A stretch of DNA of 64,000 nucleotides from Chloroflexi bacterium GWB2_49_20 (GTDB lineage Bacteria > Chloroflexota > Anaerolineae > Anaerolineales > Villigracilaceae): assembly GCA_001796335.1 (NCBI GenBank), contig MGMF01000014.1:9982-73981 (forward strand), given 5' to 3'. Under the pieces are notes generated by a model. It did not search any database and had not been told where the DNA came from. It was given only the letters and a program-made list of their open reading frames with translations. Of this stretch, positions 511 through 10,074 are shown piece after piece. Every line of letters begins with the position of its first letter. The stretch's first letter is position 1. Both the position numbers and the translations under genes were made by a program.

Positions 511-713
511 GGGTGGGTTCCTGAAGATAAAAGGTGGATTGAAGGGTAGTGGAAGAAGATGAAAATAGTATACCAGAATCGCAGGCAAGTCGGATATGTG
601 CGTTGCACTTCGTAGATAAAAAAGCCCCACCCGGGTGAACTGACCCCCTGAAACAAGACACGAAAAGAAAGTACCCCCTGTGAGAAAATAAAAACACAGG
701 AGGTACTTTTATT

Positions 714-1058
714 ATGCCAGGGGAAAAAGGAATGGTTCACTATCCGTTGAAAATGAAACTTGAAGCCATACGGTTGTTTTATGAAGAGGGGAAGACTCAG
801 GCAGAAATTACAAAAGCACTGGGCGTACGCAGCGACAATCGGGTGAAAGCCTGGGTGCGTCAATTTCTCCGGGAAGGTGAAATGGTCTTTACCCGGCCAA
901 TCGGACGTCCTCGGAAAGTGAAGGACGAGGTTGCCCATATCAAGCAATTGGAGATGGAGAATGCGCTGCTAAAAAAATACCATACCGAGTTGCGCAAGAG
1001 TTTGCTCGCGAAACGCAATATCGGGTCATCTACCACTACAGGAAAGAATACGAAGTGA
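714..1058 (+). CDS. IS3-family transposase OrfA
   Basis: A 114-residue DNA-binding subunit of the IS3 transposase. Residues about 12-60 form the helix-turn-helix region (KLEAIRLFYEEGKTQAEITK), and residues about 75-105 form a leucine-zipper-like helix used for dimerisation. The ATG at 714 follows an AGGAGG ten bases upstream. The gene ends four bases into orfB (GTGA overlap). Its tail after residue 88 is the product of normal decoding; a -1 shift at the A7 run at 971-977 would instead join it to OrfB and make the full transposase. OrfA alone usually acts as a regulator. Confidence 0.9.
   Translation: MPGEKGMVHYPLKMKLEAIRLFYEEGKTQAEITKALGVRSDNRVKAWVRQFLREGEMVFTRPIGRPRKVKDEVAHIKQLEMENALLKKYHTELRKSLLAKRNIGSSTTTGKNTK
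971..977 (+). other. Programmed -1 frameshift site (A7) of the IS3 transposase
   Basis: Seven adenines sit with the zero-frame codons CTA AAA AAA, which is the classical X XXY YYZ slippery arrangement. Slipping back one base opens a frame that continues without a stop from the site into orfB (978-1055), encoding IPYRVAQEFARETQYRVIYH and onwards, which looks like normal IS3 OrfAB linker sequence. This is direct sequence evidence that the fused transposase can be made. No stimulatory stem-loop was worked out. Confidence 0.75.
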
Positions 1059-1861
1059 AAGCCATGTGTGCCTTCTTTCGTATTTCGCGAGCAGCCTTTT
1101 ATGCCTGGGCCAAACGGAAGGAAGGACCTGATCCCGATGCAAGCAGAAAGGAGTTGATCCAGAAAGCGTACCTGGCATCCCATCGGACGTATGGTTATCG
1201 GCGTGTGACCTGGTGGATCGCCCAAAAATGTGGAGTTACGATCAATCACAAGGCGGTTTTACGCTTGATGAACCGACTGGGGATCCGTTCCGTCGCCAGA
1301 AAACGTCGGATTTATAAGAATAGTGCGCTTGAGACCTATCATTCCTACCCTAATCTGCTCAAGCGTGATTTCACGGCCACGCGACCCAACCAGAAATGGG
1401 TCACGGATGTCACCTACATCCTCACCCAAGAAGGCTGGGCGTACTTGTCCACCATCAAGTATCTATTCGATAACTTCATCATTGCCCATCAATTCGGACG
1501 AGAGAATTCAGTCGCTCTGGTGCAACAAAACCTGCGCAAGGCCAAACAAAAAGAAAAGGTCCCTGATGGACTGATCCTCCACAGTGACCAAGGGCAGCAA
1601 TACACTTCGCAAGCATATTTTGTCCTTACCACAGAGTATAACATCACCCCTTCCATGTCCCGCCGTGGAAACTGCTGGGACAATGCTCCCATGGAGAACT
1701 TCTTCGGACACCTCAAGGAAGAAGCCATTCGCCAGTATCGAAATCCTACGTTTGAGGAGGCTCAACAGATCATTAATGATTACATTTGCTTCTATAATTA
1801 TGAGAGGATACAATTGAAAACAAGACAGACACCTTACCAAATCAGGTGTCTGTCCAGTTAG
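1055..1861 (+). CDS. IS3-family transposase OrfB (DDE integrase core)
   Basis: A 268-residue catalytic half of the transposase. The rve-type integrase core carries D118 (in WVTDVTY), D178 (in LHSDQGQQY) and E214 (in MENFFGHLK). The D178-E214 gap of 35 residues is the canonical DD(35)E spacing. An HTH_21-like segment (YGYRRVTWWIAQ) precedes the core. The GTG at 1055 is only the nominal start: in this family OrfB is normally translated as an OrfAB fusion by -1 frameshifting. No disabling mutation is visible. Confidence 0.92.
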   Translation: MKAMCAFFRISRAAFYAWAKRKEGPDPDASRKELIQKAYLASHRTYGYRRVTWWIAQKCGVTINHKAVLRLMNRLGIRSVARKRRIYKNSALETYHSYPNLLKRDFTATRPNQKWVTDVTYILTQEGWAYLSTIKYLFDNFIIAHQFGRENSVALVQQNLRKAKQKEKVPDGLILHSDQGQQYTSQAYFVLTTEYNITPSMSRRGNCWDNAPMENFFGHLKEEAIRQYRNPTFEEAQQIINDYICFYNYERIQLKTRQTPYQIRCLSS

Positions 1862-2073
1862 CTCATGCGGGGTCTTTCTTTTTTTGTCTTGCCGAAAGGG
1901 TTCAGTCTATGAGGAAGCAGCGGTTTTTTTATATGTCATAACTTCGGCATCCCCCAAGGGGGCAATGTTACCACTTTCGGAAAACACTTGCCAGCACATC
2001 GTCCCTGCAGGGAAATGACAATTCGATAAACAGGGCTACTCGGTAAATATGTCTCCCTTGTTTGTGATAGGAA

Positions 2074-3951
2074 TTAATTATCCAAGGCTCCGGCGTTGAT
2101 CCATTCGACGATGATCTGGATATCATCATCTGAAAGCTTGCCCATGGGGGGCATGAACCCGGTGGCAGTCTGGAGCAGCGTGATAAGCGGACTGTTGGCT
2201 GCATCACCAGCCACGATCTGCGGGCCGCTATCCCCGGAAGTCATCACGGCCTGGTAGGTGCTTGCATCAAAACCAGCTTGCCCTGAACTCGAGTTGTGGC
2301 ACGCAATACAGCGTGATTGGAAAATCGGTTGGACCTGATCTGCAAAGCTGACCTCCCCACTACCAGGTGAAGTAGTACCGGGAGTAGCAGTCGGGTTGGC
2401 TGTTGGAGTAGCTGGTATGTCCGGGATAATCGGCGGGATAATCTCCCAATTGCGTATGAACGCCACCAGGGCTGCGATCTGATCGTCATTCAGCGTTCCA
2501 CCATAGGAAGAGGCGAAGGGTGGCATACCAAATGTCTGACCCTCGGCGATTATATTGCGGATGGTGGTATCATCGCGGGTCTTCAGGTAATTGGGTGAGC
2601 TGATGGGTGCAATGGTATCCCCCGCAAAGGTTGGGTTGAGCCCCCCTTCACCATACTTGCCATGGCAAAATGTGCAATTTTCTGCGAAAAGCTTTGCACC
2701 GACAATAATGCCGGTTTCACTGCCAGATTCGAGGGTATAGGCAACAAGCGCATCCACCTGGTCTGAGGTCAAAATATCTCCCCAAACAGGCATGGTAATA
2801 TGGGCACCACCGGAGCCAATCATGGTCAGGGCACTCTCCTTATCAGGAGCAACCGGCACCTTGTCCCCATGGCATGTGGCGCAGTATATTCCAAAAAGCT
2901 TGGTTCCTGCGGGGTAGCCTTGTGGATCGGTCACATAATTTGCCAGCGTATCCAAATCATCCGTAGACAAGGTACCTTTCCAGCCGGGCATGGTCAATTG
3001 GTGACCACCGTCAACAATCAATTTGCGCAATTCTTCCTTGCTGCCCTTAAAGGCAATCCCTTCGCCGTGACAGCCCGAACAATTGATCACAAACAGGCGC
3101 TGTCCATCGGGTGCGGCCAAAAAGTTCAACAGGGCATTCTGTTCGTCCACATTTAAAGATTTCTTCCAATCGGTGACATCCTGGTCCTTGTGGGCCGGGT
3201 AAGCCTTGCCTTCGTCGAAGACGCGCTGCAGCTCAATTGGATTTCCGGTGGCCTGGATGGCATTTTTATGACAGCCGGCGCATTCCCGGGTGAACAGGGC
3301 GCTGCCGTTGGGGGACAAAATAAATCCGACCAGCATGTCAATTTCATCCGTGCTCAGATCGCCACCCCAGGCGGGCATTCCCTGGTGATTTCCTGCTGCA
3401 ATGATCTGATGCAGGTCAACTCCGGCAGGGACGTCTATTGTAGGTCCATGGCAATTGGCACAGTTCTTTGCATACAAGTCCGCGGCTTTGTCAATCACCA
3501 CCGTTGTCTGGGGAGTTGGAGCTGCATTCAATGCCAGAAGGGTAAGCCCCACGATCCCAAGCAGTACACCCACCGCCATCAGGCTGGCAAAAGGCCGCTT
3601 GAGAAAGTGGCGCTTTGGGCTTTTGTCCAGAAATGGCAACACCAAAAGCAAGCCGATGAACAAGGTGGGCAGGATCATCGCACCGACCACTTCCAACTTG
3701 CCCGGGAAGTATTTTAACATCTGGAAAAGGAAGAGGAAATACCATTCCGGGCGCGGGGTATAGCTAGCATCATTGGGGTTGGCGCGAGCTTCCACGGGAG
3801 CGCCAATAAAATAAGCCAACAGCACCAGGATAATCAGAATGAGCAGCGAAACAACTATATCCTTGAATATGATGTCCGGAAAGAAGGGCACCCCCTCCGC
3901 CTTGGCTTTTTTATATTTTTCCATGTACTCTTGCTGTTCTTGTTTTTTCAT
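2074..3951 (-). CDS. Cytochrome b subunit IV-like protein fused to six c-type heme sites
   Basis: This 625-residue protein joins a quinol-oxidase membrane module to a multiheme tail. Residues about 30-145 hold three transmembrane helices and the quinol-site motif PEWY at 68-71, as in subunit IV of b6f or the C-terminal part of cytochrome b. Six CXXCH heme-binding motifs follow, with first cysteines at 164, 224, 291, 357, 426 and 548. The first five lie in repeated mono-heme domains of about 60-70 residues, most with a late MP (Met ligand) motif. A Pro/Thr-rich linker at about 503-530 separates the sixth domain. It is the last gene of the Rieske-cytochrome b operon, three bases after its neighbour. 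The tail would face the outside and pass electrons from the Rieske centre to a periplasmic-side acceptor. Confidence 0.9.
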   Translation of the reverse strand: MKKQEQQEYMEKYKKAKAEGVPFFPDIIFKDIVVSLLILIILVLLAYFIGAPVEARANPNDASYTPRPEWYFLFLFQMLKYFPGKLEVVGAMILPTLFIGLLLVLPFLDKSPKRHFLKRPFASLMAVGVLLGIVGLTLLALNAAPTPQTTVVIDKAADLYAKNCANCHGPTIDVPAGVDLHQIIAAGNHQGMPAWGGDLSTDEIDMLVGFILSPNGSALFTRECAGCHKNAIQATGNPIELQRVFDEGKAYPAHKDQDVTDWKKSLNVDEQNALLNFLAAPDGQRLFVINCSGCHGEGIAFKGSKEELRKLIVDGGHQLTMPGWKGTLSTDDLDTLANYVTDPQGYPAGTKLFGIYCATCHGDKVPVAPDKESALTMIGSGGAHITMPVWGDILTSDQVDALVAYTLESGSETGIIVGAKLFAENCTFCHGKYGEGGLNPTFAGDTIAPISSPNYLKTRDDTTIRNIIAEGQTFGMPPFASSYGGTLNDDQIAALVAFIRNWEIIPPIIPDIPATPTANPTATPGTTSPGSGEVSFADQVQPIFQSRCIACHNSSSGQAGFDASTYQAVMTSGDSGPQIVAGDAANSPLITLLQTATGFMPPMGKLSDDDIQIIVEWINAGALDN

Positions 3952-3954
3952 GGC

Positions 3955-4614
3955 TTATTCATCCTTCCCCGGAACAGCCGAGATCCCATTGCGGATGACA
4001 AGGTAGAGATGCATACCCACCAAAATAATCAATGCTGCCGGTAGAACCCAGACATGCGTCCCGAAGAAACGCGCCAGGGTGACTGCCGAGAGTTCATCTC
4101 CACCGCGCGCAACGCGCAGCAGCCAGTCTCCCACCACGGGGGCAACGCCGACGATGCGGGTTCCAACCGTGGTAGCCCAATAAGCTCGCTGGTCCCATGG
4201 CAGCAGGTAACCGGTAAAACCGAAACCGATCACCACGATCAACAAGATCACGCCTGTCATCCAGGTGACCTCACGCGGGAACTTATATGCACCATAGAAG
4301 AAGACCCTCAACAGGTGTGCCACCGTCAGGATCACCATGGCACTGGCTCCCCAGTGGTGCAGACCACGGATGAACCAACCCATGGGTAACTGGGTGGTGA
4401 TATACACCACACTGTCATAAGCATGGTCCGGGGTGGGGACATAATAGAGGGTCAACAGGATGCCCGTAATTGCCTGGTTGACCGCCACAAACAGAGTGGC
4501 GCTGCCCAGGGTATAAAGCCAGTTCACATGCGGGATCTTGCGTAAAAAAATAGCTTCCCATACGCTGCGCCAGCCAAACCGCTCATTCAACCAATCACCA
4601 ATATTTGCCAACAT
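3955..4614 (-). CDS. Cytochrome b6-type cytochrome b, N-terminal (heme) half
   Basis: A 219-residue four-helix diheme cytochrome b. Heme-ligand histidines fall at H86, H100, H187 and H202, identical to the classical cytochrome b6 numbering. The last pair has 14 residues between them, as in b6, rather than 13 as in mitochondrial cytochrome b. The b6 cysteine (Cys35) that covalently holds heme c(n) is replaced by T35 in the aligned segment VNWLYTLG. It works with the Rieske protein (upstream, two-base gap) and the subunit IV-multiheme protein (downstream, three-base gap) as a quinol:cytochrome c oxidoreductase core. The split b6/subunit IV organisation is b6f-like. Confidence 0.93.
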   Translation of the reverse strand: MLANIGDWLNERFGWRSVWEAIFLRKIPHVNWLYTLGSATLFVAVNQAITGILLTLYYVPTPDHAYDSVVYITTQLPMGWFIRGLHHWGASAMVILTVAHLLRVFFYGAYKFPREVTWMTGVILLIVVIGFGFTGYLLPWDQRAYWATTVGTRIVGVAPVVGDWLLRVARGGDELSAVTLARFFGTHVWVLPAALIILVGMHLYLVIRNGISAVPGKDE

Positions 4615-4616
4615 GG

Positions 4617-5108
4617 TTAACCGCCTCGCTTCACGTAAAGGATGCCGGCTTCGACCTTGCTCTCAAAGCGATCCAAAGGGCGAGGGGGTGGGCCGCTGAC
4701 AACACTACCGTCCCTGGAAAAGACACCATTGTGACACGGGCAGAAAAATTCCCCTTGCTCTGCAACCCAACGCACCCGGCAGCCAAGGTGTGTGCACACG
4801 TTGGACATGACAATGTAATCCTGTCCATTCTCTGTTAATACATACGCCGAGATCTCTTCTTCAGATTTGATCCAGCCTGTCTGGGTCTCCACGACCGCTT
4901 TAAAAAGGGTGGGAGTATTCATCTCGATCTTGTTGACCGATCCCAACTGGATCCAGTCACTGGAACCTTGTTTTGCGGCCGGGCCAATCACATAAGCGAC
5001 AGCTGGAAGACCATAAGCAATACCGATCAGACCACCAATGCCGGCAATAGTCGCCTTCATAAAATCGCTGCGATTGATCTTTTCTTCTTTATTATCAGAC
5101 TCTCCCAT
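4617..5108 (-). CDS. Rieske iron-sulfur protein
   Basis: A 163-residue membrane-anchored Rieske protein and the first gene of the cytochrome b operon. A single transmembrane helix lies at about 20-42, preceded by a twin-arginine-like NRSDFMK segment with only one arginine. The [2Fe-2S] site is complete: CTHLGC at 105-110 and CPCHNG at 123-128, giving ligands C105, H107, C123 and H126, with the disulfide cysteines C110 and C125. A GPPPRPL proline loop follows at about 139-145. GGAGGAG lies a few bases before the ATG at 5108. It would accept one electron from quinol and pass it to the c-type hemes of its operon partner. Confidence 0.95.
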   Translation of the reverse strand: MGESDNKEEKINRSDFMKATIAGIGGLIGIAYGLPAVAYVIGPAAKQGSSDWIQLGSVNKIEMNTPTLFKAVVETQTGWIKSEEEISAYVLTENGQDYIVMSNVCTHLGCRVRWVAEQGEFFCPCHNGVFSRDGSVVSGPPPRPLDRFESKVEAGILYVKRGG

Positions 5109-7917: not shown

Positions 7918-10074
7918 ATGAAGACGCGCCATTCGCTCCCTATTTTGTTGGTAACCCTGATAATCATCTCAGCGGCCTGCAGCCCGACCCGCGGACTTTC
8001 CAATCCCAATCCCATTCCAACCGGTATAGCAGAATCTCAACCCACCCCCCCACCGGATATGCCCACCCAGGTGGTACCTTCCGGAGCAGCGCTCAGCCTG
8101 TCCCAACTATACAACAGCCGCGTAGGATCAGGCGAATGGGCAGCTGGAGATGGCTTGGTCAAGCTTCTGGGCATGTATACAGGCACATCCAAAGCCAGTG
8201 ATGTGTTGGGGAATGCCAGCGTATCCGACTTTGAGCTGACCGGGTTAATGAATTTGGCTGACCAATACCTGGCCGGGAATCCCACTGGCACCATTCATGA
8301 TGAACTGCAGCAGGAAGTCAACCGGTTGGTCGCACCCGTGGATCAATTGGAACGCTTCTCACAGAAGAGCGACCTGCTGACCAGTACTAACCCGCATAGG
8401 GCCAGCCTGAGTCAGCCAGCCGCACTGCCAATTGCCTCTGCTGATGAAGCGGAATGCCAGAGATTGTGGTCAAGCGGTTTTGAGTCCACCACTCCGGTGA
8501 TGTGTTTTCTTTATGGCGAAGAAAACGTGGATGGTACACGTGTACGCCTGTATTACCCAAATTGGTGGGCGGTGGACGATCCGCGCCTGAGTCGCATCGA
8601 GCCGATCATGCAGGCTGCCACACTGGCAGTCAGCAAATACAACGCCCTGGGACCCAATCCCCTGCCGGCAACCACCCTGGTGGTAACCGAATTGCCCGGT
8701 ATGGACCCCATAACCCGTCTTCGTGACGCGGATTTGTTGGCGCTTGCAAACTGGAGAAGGACCTCGTCATTTTATTGTTATGTAGGGCTCTTTCCAAGCC
8801 TTTTCACAACCGTCAATGTGCAGCAAGCCCAACAAACTCTAGCGCATGAGATGTTTCACTGTTACCAGTCAGCAAATTTATTTGCCCAGGGAAATAACCC
8901 TAATTATGATGCCAACAGATGGTGGGTGGAGGGTTCGGCAGAGTATTTCAGCAACCTGGTTTATCCTGATACCAATTATGAACATCGCTGGATGAGCCAG
9001 ACAACAACCGCAATGGTTGAAAGCACAAGCCTGACCACCTGGGAATATAAATCTTTTATTTTCTTCCAGTACCTTGAAAACCGCCCGGAGATGGGAGTGG
9101 CCGGGATATTAAATTTGCTGCGATCGCTGCCTGTGGTCACAGGCAGCGGGAATGATGCTCAACTGTCAGCCTTGTCGGCTTATCCGAATATGGGTACCAT
9201 TTTCCAGGAGTTCGTTGAAGCTGTTGCCGATCAGAATGTGATCGACACCAACCACTCGGCCATCCCATTGGAAATTCCATATAACCCCGATGTAGTCACG
9301 GAGCCAACATCAGGCAATATCTTTGGTGGGAGTCCCTTCACAGTTGATATTCGCCAGATCATATTCCCCCGGAATTATGATTACGATTTAACCACCTTGT
9401 TTGAAGGCATACCGGGACAGGTGCGCGTCCGAAAGGAAGGCAGCCCACAAACCTGGGAGGCCATCCCGGCTCGGGTGGCAGCCGGTTGCGGCGAGGAGCG
9501 TTTTGTGCTGGTTGAATCTCAAACCGGAGTAAGCGCTGACACCACTTATAATGTTCAACTTACCGCGACCCAAAGGGCAAGCGAGGGGCTATGCTCCTGC
9601 CTGGTCGGCAGTTGGAAGATGGATAACACCAGTTATCTAACCCACTTGAATGGGTTGATCCAGCAGGCAGCCCCGGGAATGATCGAATACACAGACGTGG
9701 ATGGCAGCATGACAGCCGAGTTCACCTCCAGTGGGGAACTCATCCAGTCGATTGATAACCTGACCGTGAATGCCAACATGAACGTGAGCGGACTTCCCAC
9801 CCAGACCATGGTGATCAGCCTGGATGGGAACAGCACGGCTGGTTATAGTATGACCGAAACCAGCATCAGTTACACTTCCATTGAAAGCCATTTATCCATA
9901 TCCACCATATTGAATGGTGCCGAGTTAAATAATAACACCCCAAGCGACTATCTATCCTCCGGCCCGTTGGGAACCGGCGCCAACTTCATTTGCAGCGAAA
10001 ACTCGCTCAGCCTGACACCCACCTACCCGAATTATTTAAATTTGCCCCCCCTGACTTTCAGCCGCGAGCCATAG
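7918..10074 (+). CDS. Putative zincin-type metalloprotease lipoprotein
   Basis: A 718-residue exported lipoprotein of no recognised family. A signal peptide ends in the lipobox SAAC with C21 as the lipidated residue, followed by a Pro/Thr-rich linker (about 28-55). In mid-protein an HEMFH sequence at 310-314 matches the HExxH zinc motif, and WWVEGSAEYF at about 335-344 could supply the third ligand (E338 or E342), as in gluzincin peptidases. The C-terminal third (about 560-718) has a separate beta-rich domain starting CSCLVGSWKM. I start at the ATG at 7918, after GGGAGG, rather than the TTG just before it. Peptidase function is inferred from the motif only. Confidence 0.6.
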   Translation: MKTRHSLPILLVTLIIISAACSPTRGLSNPNPIPTGIAESQPTPPPDMPTQVVPSGAALSLSQLYNSRVGSGEWAAGDGLVKLLGMYTGTSKASDVLGNASVSDFELTGLMNLADQYLAGNPTGTIHDELQQEVNRLVAPVDQLERFSQKSDLLTSTNPHRASLSQPAALPIASADEAECQRLWSSGFESTTPVMCFLYGEENVDGTRVRLYYPNWWAVDDPRLSRIEPIMQAATLAVSKYNALGPNPLPATTLVVTELPGMDPITRLRDADLLALANWRRTSSFYCYVGLFPSLFTTVNVQQAQQTLAHEMFHCYQSANLFAQGNNPNYDANRWWVEGSAEYFSNLVYPDTNYEHRWMSQTTTAMVESTSLTTWEYKSFIFFQYLENRPEMGVAGILNLLRSLPVVTGSGNDAQLSALSAYPNMGTIFQEFVEAVADQNVIDTNHSAIPLEIPYNPDVVTEPTSGNIFGGSPFTVDIRQIIFPRNYDYDLTTLFEGIPGQVRVRKEGSPQTWEAIPARVAAGCGEERFVLVESQTGVSADTTYNVQLTATQRASEGLCSCLVGSWKMDNTSYLTHLNGLIQQAAPGMIEYTDVDGSMTAEFTSSGELIQSIDNLTVNANMNVSGLPTQTMVISLDGNSTAGYSMTETSISYTSIESHLSISTILNGAELNNNTPSDYLSSGPLGTGANFICSENSLSLTPTYPNYLNLPPLTFSREP

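Follow-up and report, generated by a model that had tools for sequence, protein, structure and literature searches.

A b6-type Rieske/cytochrome b operon of Chloroflexota with a subunit IV fused to a chain of c-type hemes

Introduction

The locus described here raises two linked questions: why would the subunit IV of a Rieske/cytochrome b complex continue into a chain of c-type hemes, and where might such a chain deliver its electrons? The window, a stretch of 64,000 nucleotides (positions 9,982 to 73,981 of contig MGMF01000014.1), comes from the genome of Chloroflexi bacterium GWB2_49_20, which is 3.37 Mb in size and 99.4% complete. In Bacillus-type b6c complexes, the QcrC protein is a subunit IV fused to a single c heme. 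In the open-licence literature, we found no recognizable description of a subunit IV that continues into a multi-heme chain.

Results

Operon and fusion architecture

The operon comprises three genes on the minus strand, in the order Rieske, b6, and subunit IV fusion, with intergenic gaps of 2 and 3 nt. Its features, in window positions, are as follows.

4617..5108, minus strand: Rieske iron-sulfur protein, 163 aa, first gene of the operon (PF00355, 6.6e-11)
3955..4614, minus strand: cytochrome b6 (split b), 219 aa (PF00033, 2e-49)
2074..3951, minus strand: subunit IV with six c-type heme domains, 625 aa
3502..3951, minus strand: subunit IV part, residues 1-150, with the PEWY motif (PF00032)
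3313..3492, minus strand: heme domain 1, residues 154-213, closest to the membrane
3112..3312, minus strand: heme domain 2, residues 214-280, with His254 (codon 3192-3190) and Trp262
2914..3111, minus strand: heme domain 3, residues 281-346
2707..2913, minus strand: heme domain 4, residues 347-415
2428..2706, minus strand: heme domain 5, residues 416-508, cytochrome c6-like fold
2359..2427, minus strand: Pro/Thr-rich tether, residues 509-531, disordered in the model; most relatives have an extra heme domain here
2077..2358, minus strand: terminal PSCyt1-type heme domain, residues 532-625, a head domain common to other proteins
639..1906, plus strand: IS3-like insertion element beyond the 3' end of the operon (ORFs 714-1058 and 1055-1861)

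The first two genes encode the core of a Rieske/cytochrome b complex of the b6 type. The Rieske gene is preceded by a GGAGG-like ribosome-binding site, and its product has both cluster motifs (CTHLGC at 105 and CPCH at 123). The b6 protein has histidines at 29, 64, 86, 87, 100, 187, and 202. In an alignment to solved b6 chains, the b6 numbering is retained after one gap and His86/100/187/202 are unshifted; these heme-b ligands thus stand at b6 spacing on a separate b6, which makes this a split b. An earlier note on this DNA had described a Rieske protein and a split b with ligands at 86/100/187/202, and every sequence point of that description is correct. A scan for promoters and terminators gave signal at or below chance.

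The complex differs from cytochrome b6f proper in two respects. In b6f, Cys35 of b6 is the site of covalent heme ci attachment. The GWB2_49_20 b6 has Thr35 at this position, and Cys35 is absent from every b6 whose region was readable. Cytochrome f is also missing from the three operon genes, in which Pfam detects no families other than those of Rieske, b, subunit IV, and c-type heme proteins. The best NCBIfam match of the b6 is PRK03735, with a score of 232.6 that lies below the model cut-off of 325.

The third gene carries six heme domains on one chain. Pfam places Cytochrom_B_C (PF00032) at residues 57-151, followed by five Cytochrome_CBB3 stretches (4e-56) and PSCyt1 at 548-603 (9.5e-14), and CXXCH motifs start at residues 164, 224, 291, 357, 426, and 548. 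Membrane helices are predicted in the subunit IV part at 25-49, 85-108, and 119-143. Six heme motifs, each within a matching domain and kept in relatives, are far beyond chance. We regard the fusion architecture as near certain, and the PEWY subunit IV running into six CXXCH domains that the earlier note had read from the letters is borne out by Pfam and the motif positions. The Pro/Thr linker before the sixth heme domain is likewise real: residues 510-531 are predicted to be disordered, with a pLDDT of about 30.

Five of the six hemes keep a methionine ligand. Ligands were counted in 29 proteins (GWB2_49_20 and 28 relatives), with gapped rows excluded for domain 5 and the terminal domain. Met192 of domain 1 is kept in 28/29, Met321 of domain 3 in 29/29, and Met387 of domain 4 in 27/29 (one Leu, one gap); the ligand Met is kept in 28/28 for domain 5 and 27/27 for the terminal domain. 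In domain 2, no alignment column has Met in more than 2/29 proteins, and His254 and Trp262 are invariant (29/29). The lack of a conserved Met, together with the invariant His254, makes a predicted bis-His heme the natural reading of domain 2.

Occurrence in relatives

The multi-heme fusion is real, rare, and patchy in its distribution. We scanned the genome_contigs collection (84,980 species) with an alignment of three multi-heme proteins; the scan returned 45 loci and, being based on short peptide patterns, is not a full census. The fusion is present in 28 of these loci (L051-L078), nearly all labeled Chloroflexota or a subgroup, with L075 labeled Acidimicrobiia. Seven CXXCH motifs occur in 23 of the 28, six in 2, and eight in 1, while 2 are cut at contig ends; seven hemes, not six, is the usual number in the family. 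Counted from PEWY, the hemes lie at +96, +156, +223, +289, and +358 in nearly all 28, and a b6 homologue stands directly upstream of the fusion in all 34 multi-heme loci examined. Domains 1-4 were found at E < 1e-80 in 14 of the 120 genomes of a family sample, and strong matches occur in 4 of the 396 genomes of a class sample, GWB2_49_20 included. All 4 are fused, and no separate gene for domains 1-4 was seen in the class sample; six weaker matches (E 3e-12 to 7e-11) span only part of the four-domain block.

These relatives bear on whether the gene is intact. The earlier note had proposed looking for the same domain order in other Chloroflexota, and had allowed for an assembly join or for a heme region that forms a separate gene in all relatives. 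The order is kept in 28 public contigs and in the 14 family-sample genomes, no separate heme gene was seen, and the 625-codon frame is uninterrupted. An assembly join, a chimera, or a pseudogene is therefore scarcely conceivable, and the identical order and near-constant heme spacing in relatives rule out an assembly artefact.

A further locus has a different tail. L079 (7419-9494, plus strand; “Hainich-H43-bin172”) encodes a subunit IV that runs on into four class-I heme domains resembling a doubled pair, and a b6, a Rieske, and a multi-heme gene adjoin it. This fusion is apparently a separate expansion.

Structure models

Structure models place the hemes on one side of the membrane and relate the outer domains to known folds. 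The full-length model (mean pLDDT 72) has a pTM of 0.42, so that single domains are readable and the packing between domains is unreliable. It shows three predicted membrane helices followed by every heme on the positive side. Domain 5 finds its match in cytochrome c6 (1gdv; Z 12.3, 83 residues, rmsd 1.8), the terminal domain in the iron oxidase FoxE (5mab; Z 10.4, 91 residues, rmsd 2.7); by sequence, the best match of the terminal domain to solved structures has an E of 0.07, too weak to be informative. A separate model of domains 1-4 (pLDDT 81, pTM 0.67) aligns over 128 residues to the diheme CcoP (3mk7_C; Z 7.3, rmsd 3.9), which hints that the hemes of domains 1-4 may be paired as in CcoP. 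At E <= 0.001, Foldseek gave no match for the domains 1-4 model or the full model.

Ancestry of the heme domains

Domain 5 and the terminal domain are related to a widespread two-heme protein. Near matches in the class are mostly two-heme subunit IV fusions, one of which (478 aa) is also encoded by GWB2_49_20. These share the operon core and have neither domains 1-4 nor the extra domain of most relatives. In a tree of 233 domains and 67 columns, which included 19 of the two-heme loci that were fetched, the first domain of two-heme fusions clusters with domain 5 (support 0.926), and their second domain with the terminal one (support 1.0, 44/46 members). The widespread two-heme fusion is thus shown, at the level of sequence, to be the source of both domains. 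Domains 1, 2, 3, 4, and 5 each form one clade across relatives; the deeper order of the tree is weak because the domains are short. The tandem duplication that the earlier note had wished to see examined by such a tree did occur, and it is old: the monophyly of each of domains 1-5 across relatives rules out a recent one.

We suggest that the multi-heme form would have arisen from the common two-heme fusion when a four-domain block was placed between the membrane and the acceptor head, mostly with the gain of one further domain. A FastTree phylogeny of b6 plus subunit IV covered 62 of 65 loci (b6 pieces that were missing or shorter than 170 residues were left out, L051 among them). In this tree, one clade (0.94) holds 32 of the 33 multi-heme forms, with the eight-heme form placed outside it at a weak support of 0.68. 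The GWB2_49_20 protein clusters with the seven-heme L054, L052, and L053 (0.975), and L057, the second six-heme form, is nested within seven-heme ones. Given this grouping, the absence of domain 6 in GWB2_49_20 is most simply read as a loss, with the disordered tether standing at its site.

Gene neighborhood and the shared terminal domain

Multi-heme genes often accompany the long tail and are absent around the short one. Using mechanically called ORFs, we counted genes with at least four CXXCH within 8 kb, at loci with a flank of 3 kb or more; this took in 32 of 34 multi-heme loci (L074 and L076 had less than 3 kb), and L063 was left out as the same locus as L044. Such a neighbor is present at 23/32 multi-heme loci vs 0/26 two-heme loci (p 3e-9). 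The contrast persists when sequences are collapsed at 90% identity (19/28 vs 0/24), 80% (14/20 vs 0/19), and 75% (8/13 vs 0/14, p 6e-4). The neighbors in relatives include a NapC/NrfH-like heptaheme, a DmsE/MtrA-like nonaheme, b561, and a decaheme lipoprotein-like protein. Others are an octaheme accompanied by FeS and NrfD partners and multi-heme proteins that contain a collagen-like stretch. By their gene content, many of these clusters appear geared to exporting electrons past the membrane. No multi-heme neighbor was found at the GWB2_49_20 operon, L052, L053, or L054, within flanks of 14.1, 15.5, 6.3, and 8.8 kb, respectively.

The insertion element in the window lies close to the operon, its end about 170 bases from the stop codon of the fusion. 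It has 38-nt imperfect inverted repeats at its ends and is present as a single copy in the genome; we take it to be IS3-like from reading the sequence, not from a search. It may have altered the neighborhood of the operon.

The terminal domain is found on other proteins. It stands at the end of 19 of the 22 NapC-like heptaheme matches (a count in which one locus, L044/L063, was entered twice); among the three exceptions, contig ends truncate two, and the third is a full-length homologue encoded by GWB2_49_20. It also ends 11 of 19 b561 matches, some of which are fragmentary. The earlier note had called this domain a mobile or donor-specific head. The disordered linker agrees with its being tethered, but the presence of this head on two-heme fusions, the heptaheme, and b561 lends no support to donor specificity and gives it the look of a shared plug. 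The strongest hint at function in the data is that three kinds of quinol module carry one and the same head.

Variants of this arrangement also occur. A b561 protein (L078:3886-5601) and a heptaheme-type protein (L057:9902-11959) have two consecutive head domains. On contig C26 of GWB2_49_20, a 110-residue protein (L012:6257-6589) consists of little beyond the terminal head domain and is a possible carrier or partner.

Other redox genes of the genome

Multi-heme genes of the neighbor type are encoded elsewhere in the GWB2_49_20 genome. Contig C1 has a nonaheme gene adjoining a b561 protein with the terminal domain, C17 has a cluster of 9-, 8-, 7-, and 6-heme genes, and C14 has an octaheme gene adjoining an FeS protein and a likely NrfD, both named by likeness to L056 and L078. 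The decaheme lipoprotein of the relatives has only a weak 41-residue match in this genome. Also on C14, an octaheme Cytochrome_cB (PF11783) adjoins a 937-aa multi-heme/b561 protein (L190:14446-18674), possibly as a reductase pair, and C28 encodes a 686-residue protein with 26 CXXCH (L192:7560-9620). Contig C7 encodes a third Rieske/b complex (L011:5704-9583). It consists of a 370-aa protein (one CXXCH and a b6 part), a subunit IV, and a Rieske-like protein, together with a 630-aa protein that combines CCG, FeS, and nitrate-reductase-gamma parts.

Among terminal oxidases, GWB2_49_20 has one bd quinol oxidase; no heme-copper oxidase (PF00115) was found in its genome, with the control positive in 8/14. 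Across genomes, a heme-copper oxidase is present in 11/17 with the multi-heme fusion vs 17/27 with the two-heme fusion (16 above cut-off). There is thus no association by which its absence could be the cause of the tail.

Discussion

The multi-heme fusion combines traits that known systems keep apart or lack. Like the Bacillus-type b6c complex, it has a split b6, a Rieske protein, and a subunit IV with a C-terminal c-type domain; unlike that complex, it has six to eight hemes where b6c has one, its family b6 lacks the heme-ci cysteine, and its b6 falls below the PRK03735 cut-off. Anammox bacteria (Kustd1480-1485 and Kuste4569-4574) and Nitrospina have complexes with a b6-like core, subunit IV, and hexa- or octaheme c proteins (PMC12954380, PMC3578206). 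In these complexes, the heme c genes are separate, whereas GWB2_49_20 has class-I type hemes on a single chain with subunit IV. The bc cluster GSU2930-2937 of Geobacter sets Rieske/cytochrome b beside several multi-heme c genes (PMC2825233); these stand as separate genes, unlike in the present fusion. CcoP of cbb3 oxidase is a diheme class-I pair to which the model of domains 1-4 aligns; it has two hemes and is attached to an oxidase. A heliobacterial diheme cytochrome is covered in PMC7143216.

We lean toward reading the operon as encoding a complex III of the b6 type whose heme relay is built in and probably feeds a cell-wall or extracellular electron network. The complex would oxidize quinol by a Q cycle. 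Menaquinol, the presumed quinone type, would be oxidized at the Qo site; one electron would return via the two b hemes and the other would pass to the Rieske protein. Domain 1 stands where cytochrome c1 or f would and is the probable acceptor from Rieske. Transfer might then proceed through domains 2-4 to domain 5 and, across the flexible tether, to the terminal PSCyt1-type domain and a multi-heme partner. A relay on the positive side is likely and a role in export plausible; the order, direction, and acceptor of transfer are what we infer from this arrangement.

The earlier note's proposal that the fusion wires the quinol site to distant acceptors agrees with the topology and with the multi-heme neighbors of many relatives, but the GWB2_49_20 operon and its three nearest relatives have no such neighbors. 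This counts against a relay to export and favors an ordinary complex III, the tail of which would feed positive-side soluble carriers or reductases (nitrite- or tetrathionate-type); the added domains would then merely extend reach or store electrons. The octaheme Cytochrome_cB beside the b561/multi-heme gene would be a possible acceptor for such a complex. Genomes with a heme-copper oxidase have the tail too, and the oxidase is not rarer in multi-heme genomes, which again speaks against export. A relay of this length also has difficulties of its own: a short hop does not require so many hemes, and a second heme with bis-His ligation, if its potential is low, would impose an uphill step. Set against the ordinary complex are the lack of a heme-copper oxidase in GWB2_49_20 and the neighbor counts, which indicate that lengthening of the tail accompanies multi-heme networks. 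We consider it rather unlikely.

The complex might instead run in reverse, taking electrons from outside (Fe(II), a partner cell, or an electrode) through the terminal domain and driving them uphill to the quinone pool. The FoxE-like fold of the terminal domain fits this, although a shared fold shows no function. NapC-like and b561 modules in known systems mostly oxidize quinol. Their presence in the clusters and the retention of a bd quinol oxidase by GWB2_49_20 both oppose reverse operation, which we judge quite improbable.

Beyond the relay to an external network that we favor, a bolder reading can be put forward tentatively, as possible but on balance doubtful. Here, the fusion would give an energy-conserving complex III a covalent modular wire across the cell wall of Chloroflexota, for which no porin-cytochrome route is known, and the bis-His heme of domain 2 would act as a gate. 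The plug shared by the fusion, the NapC-like heptaheme, and b561 would make these three entry points to one external network.

The finding bears on a wider problem in this group. In two Anaerolineales genomes with an abundance of large multi-heme proteins, no porin-cytochrome conduits were detected (PMC7399161). This absence raises the question of how electrons from quinol leave such cells. A heme chain carried by complex III itself would tie proton pumping directly to electron export, and candidate partners can be named from the gene order of the relatives. The steps suggested here, a two-heme fusion, the insertion of a four-domain block, and later gains and losses, would be a route by which a respiratory complex may grow a wire.
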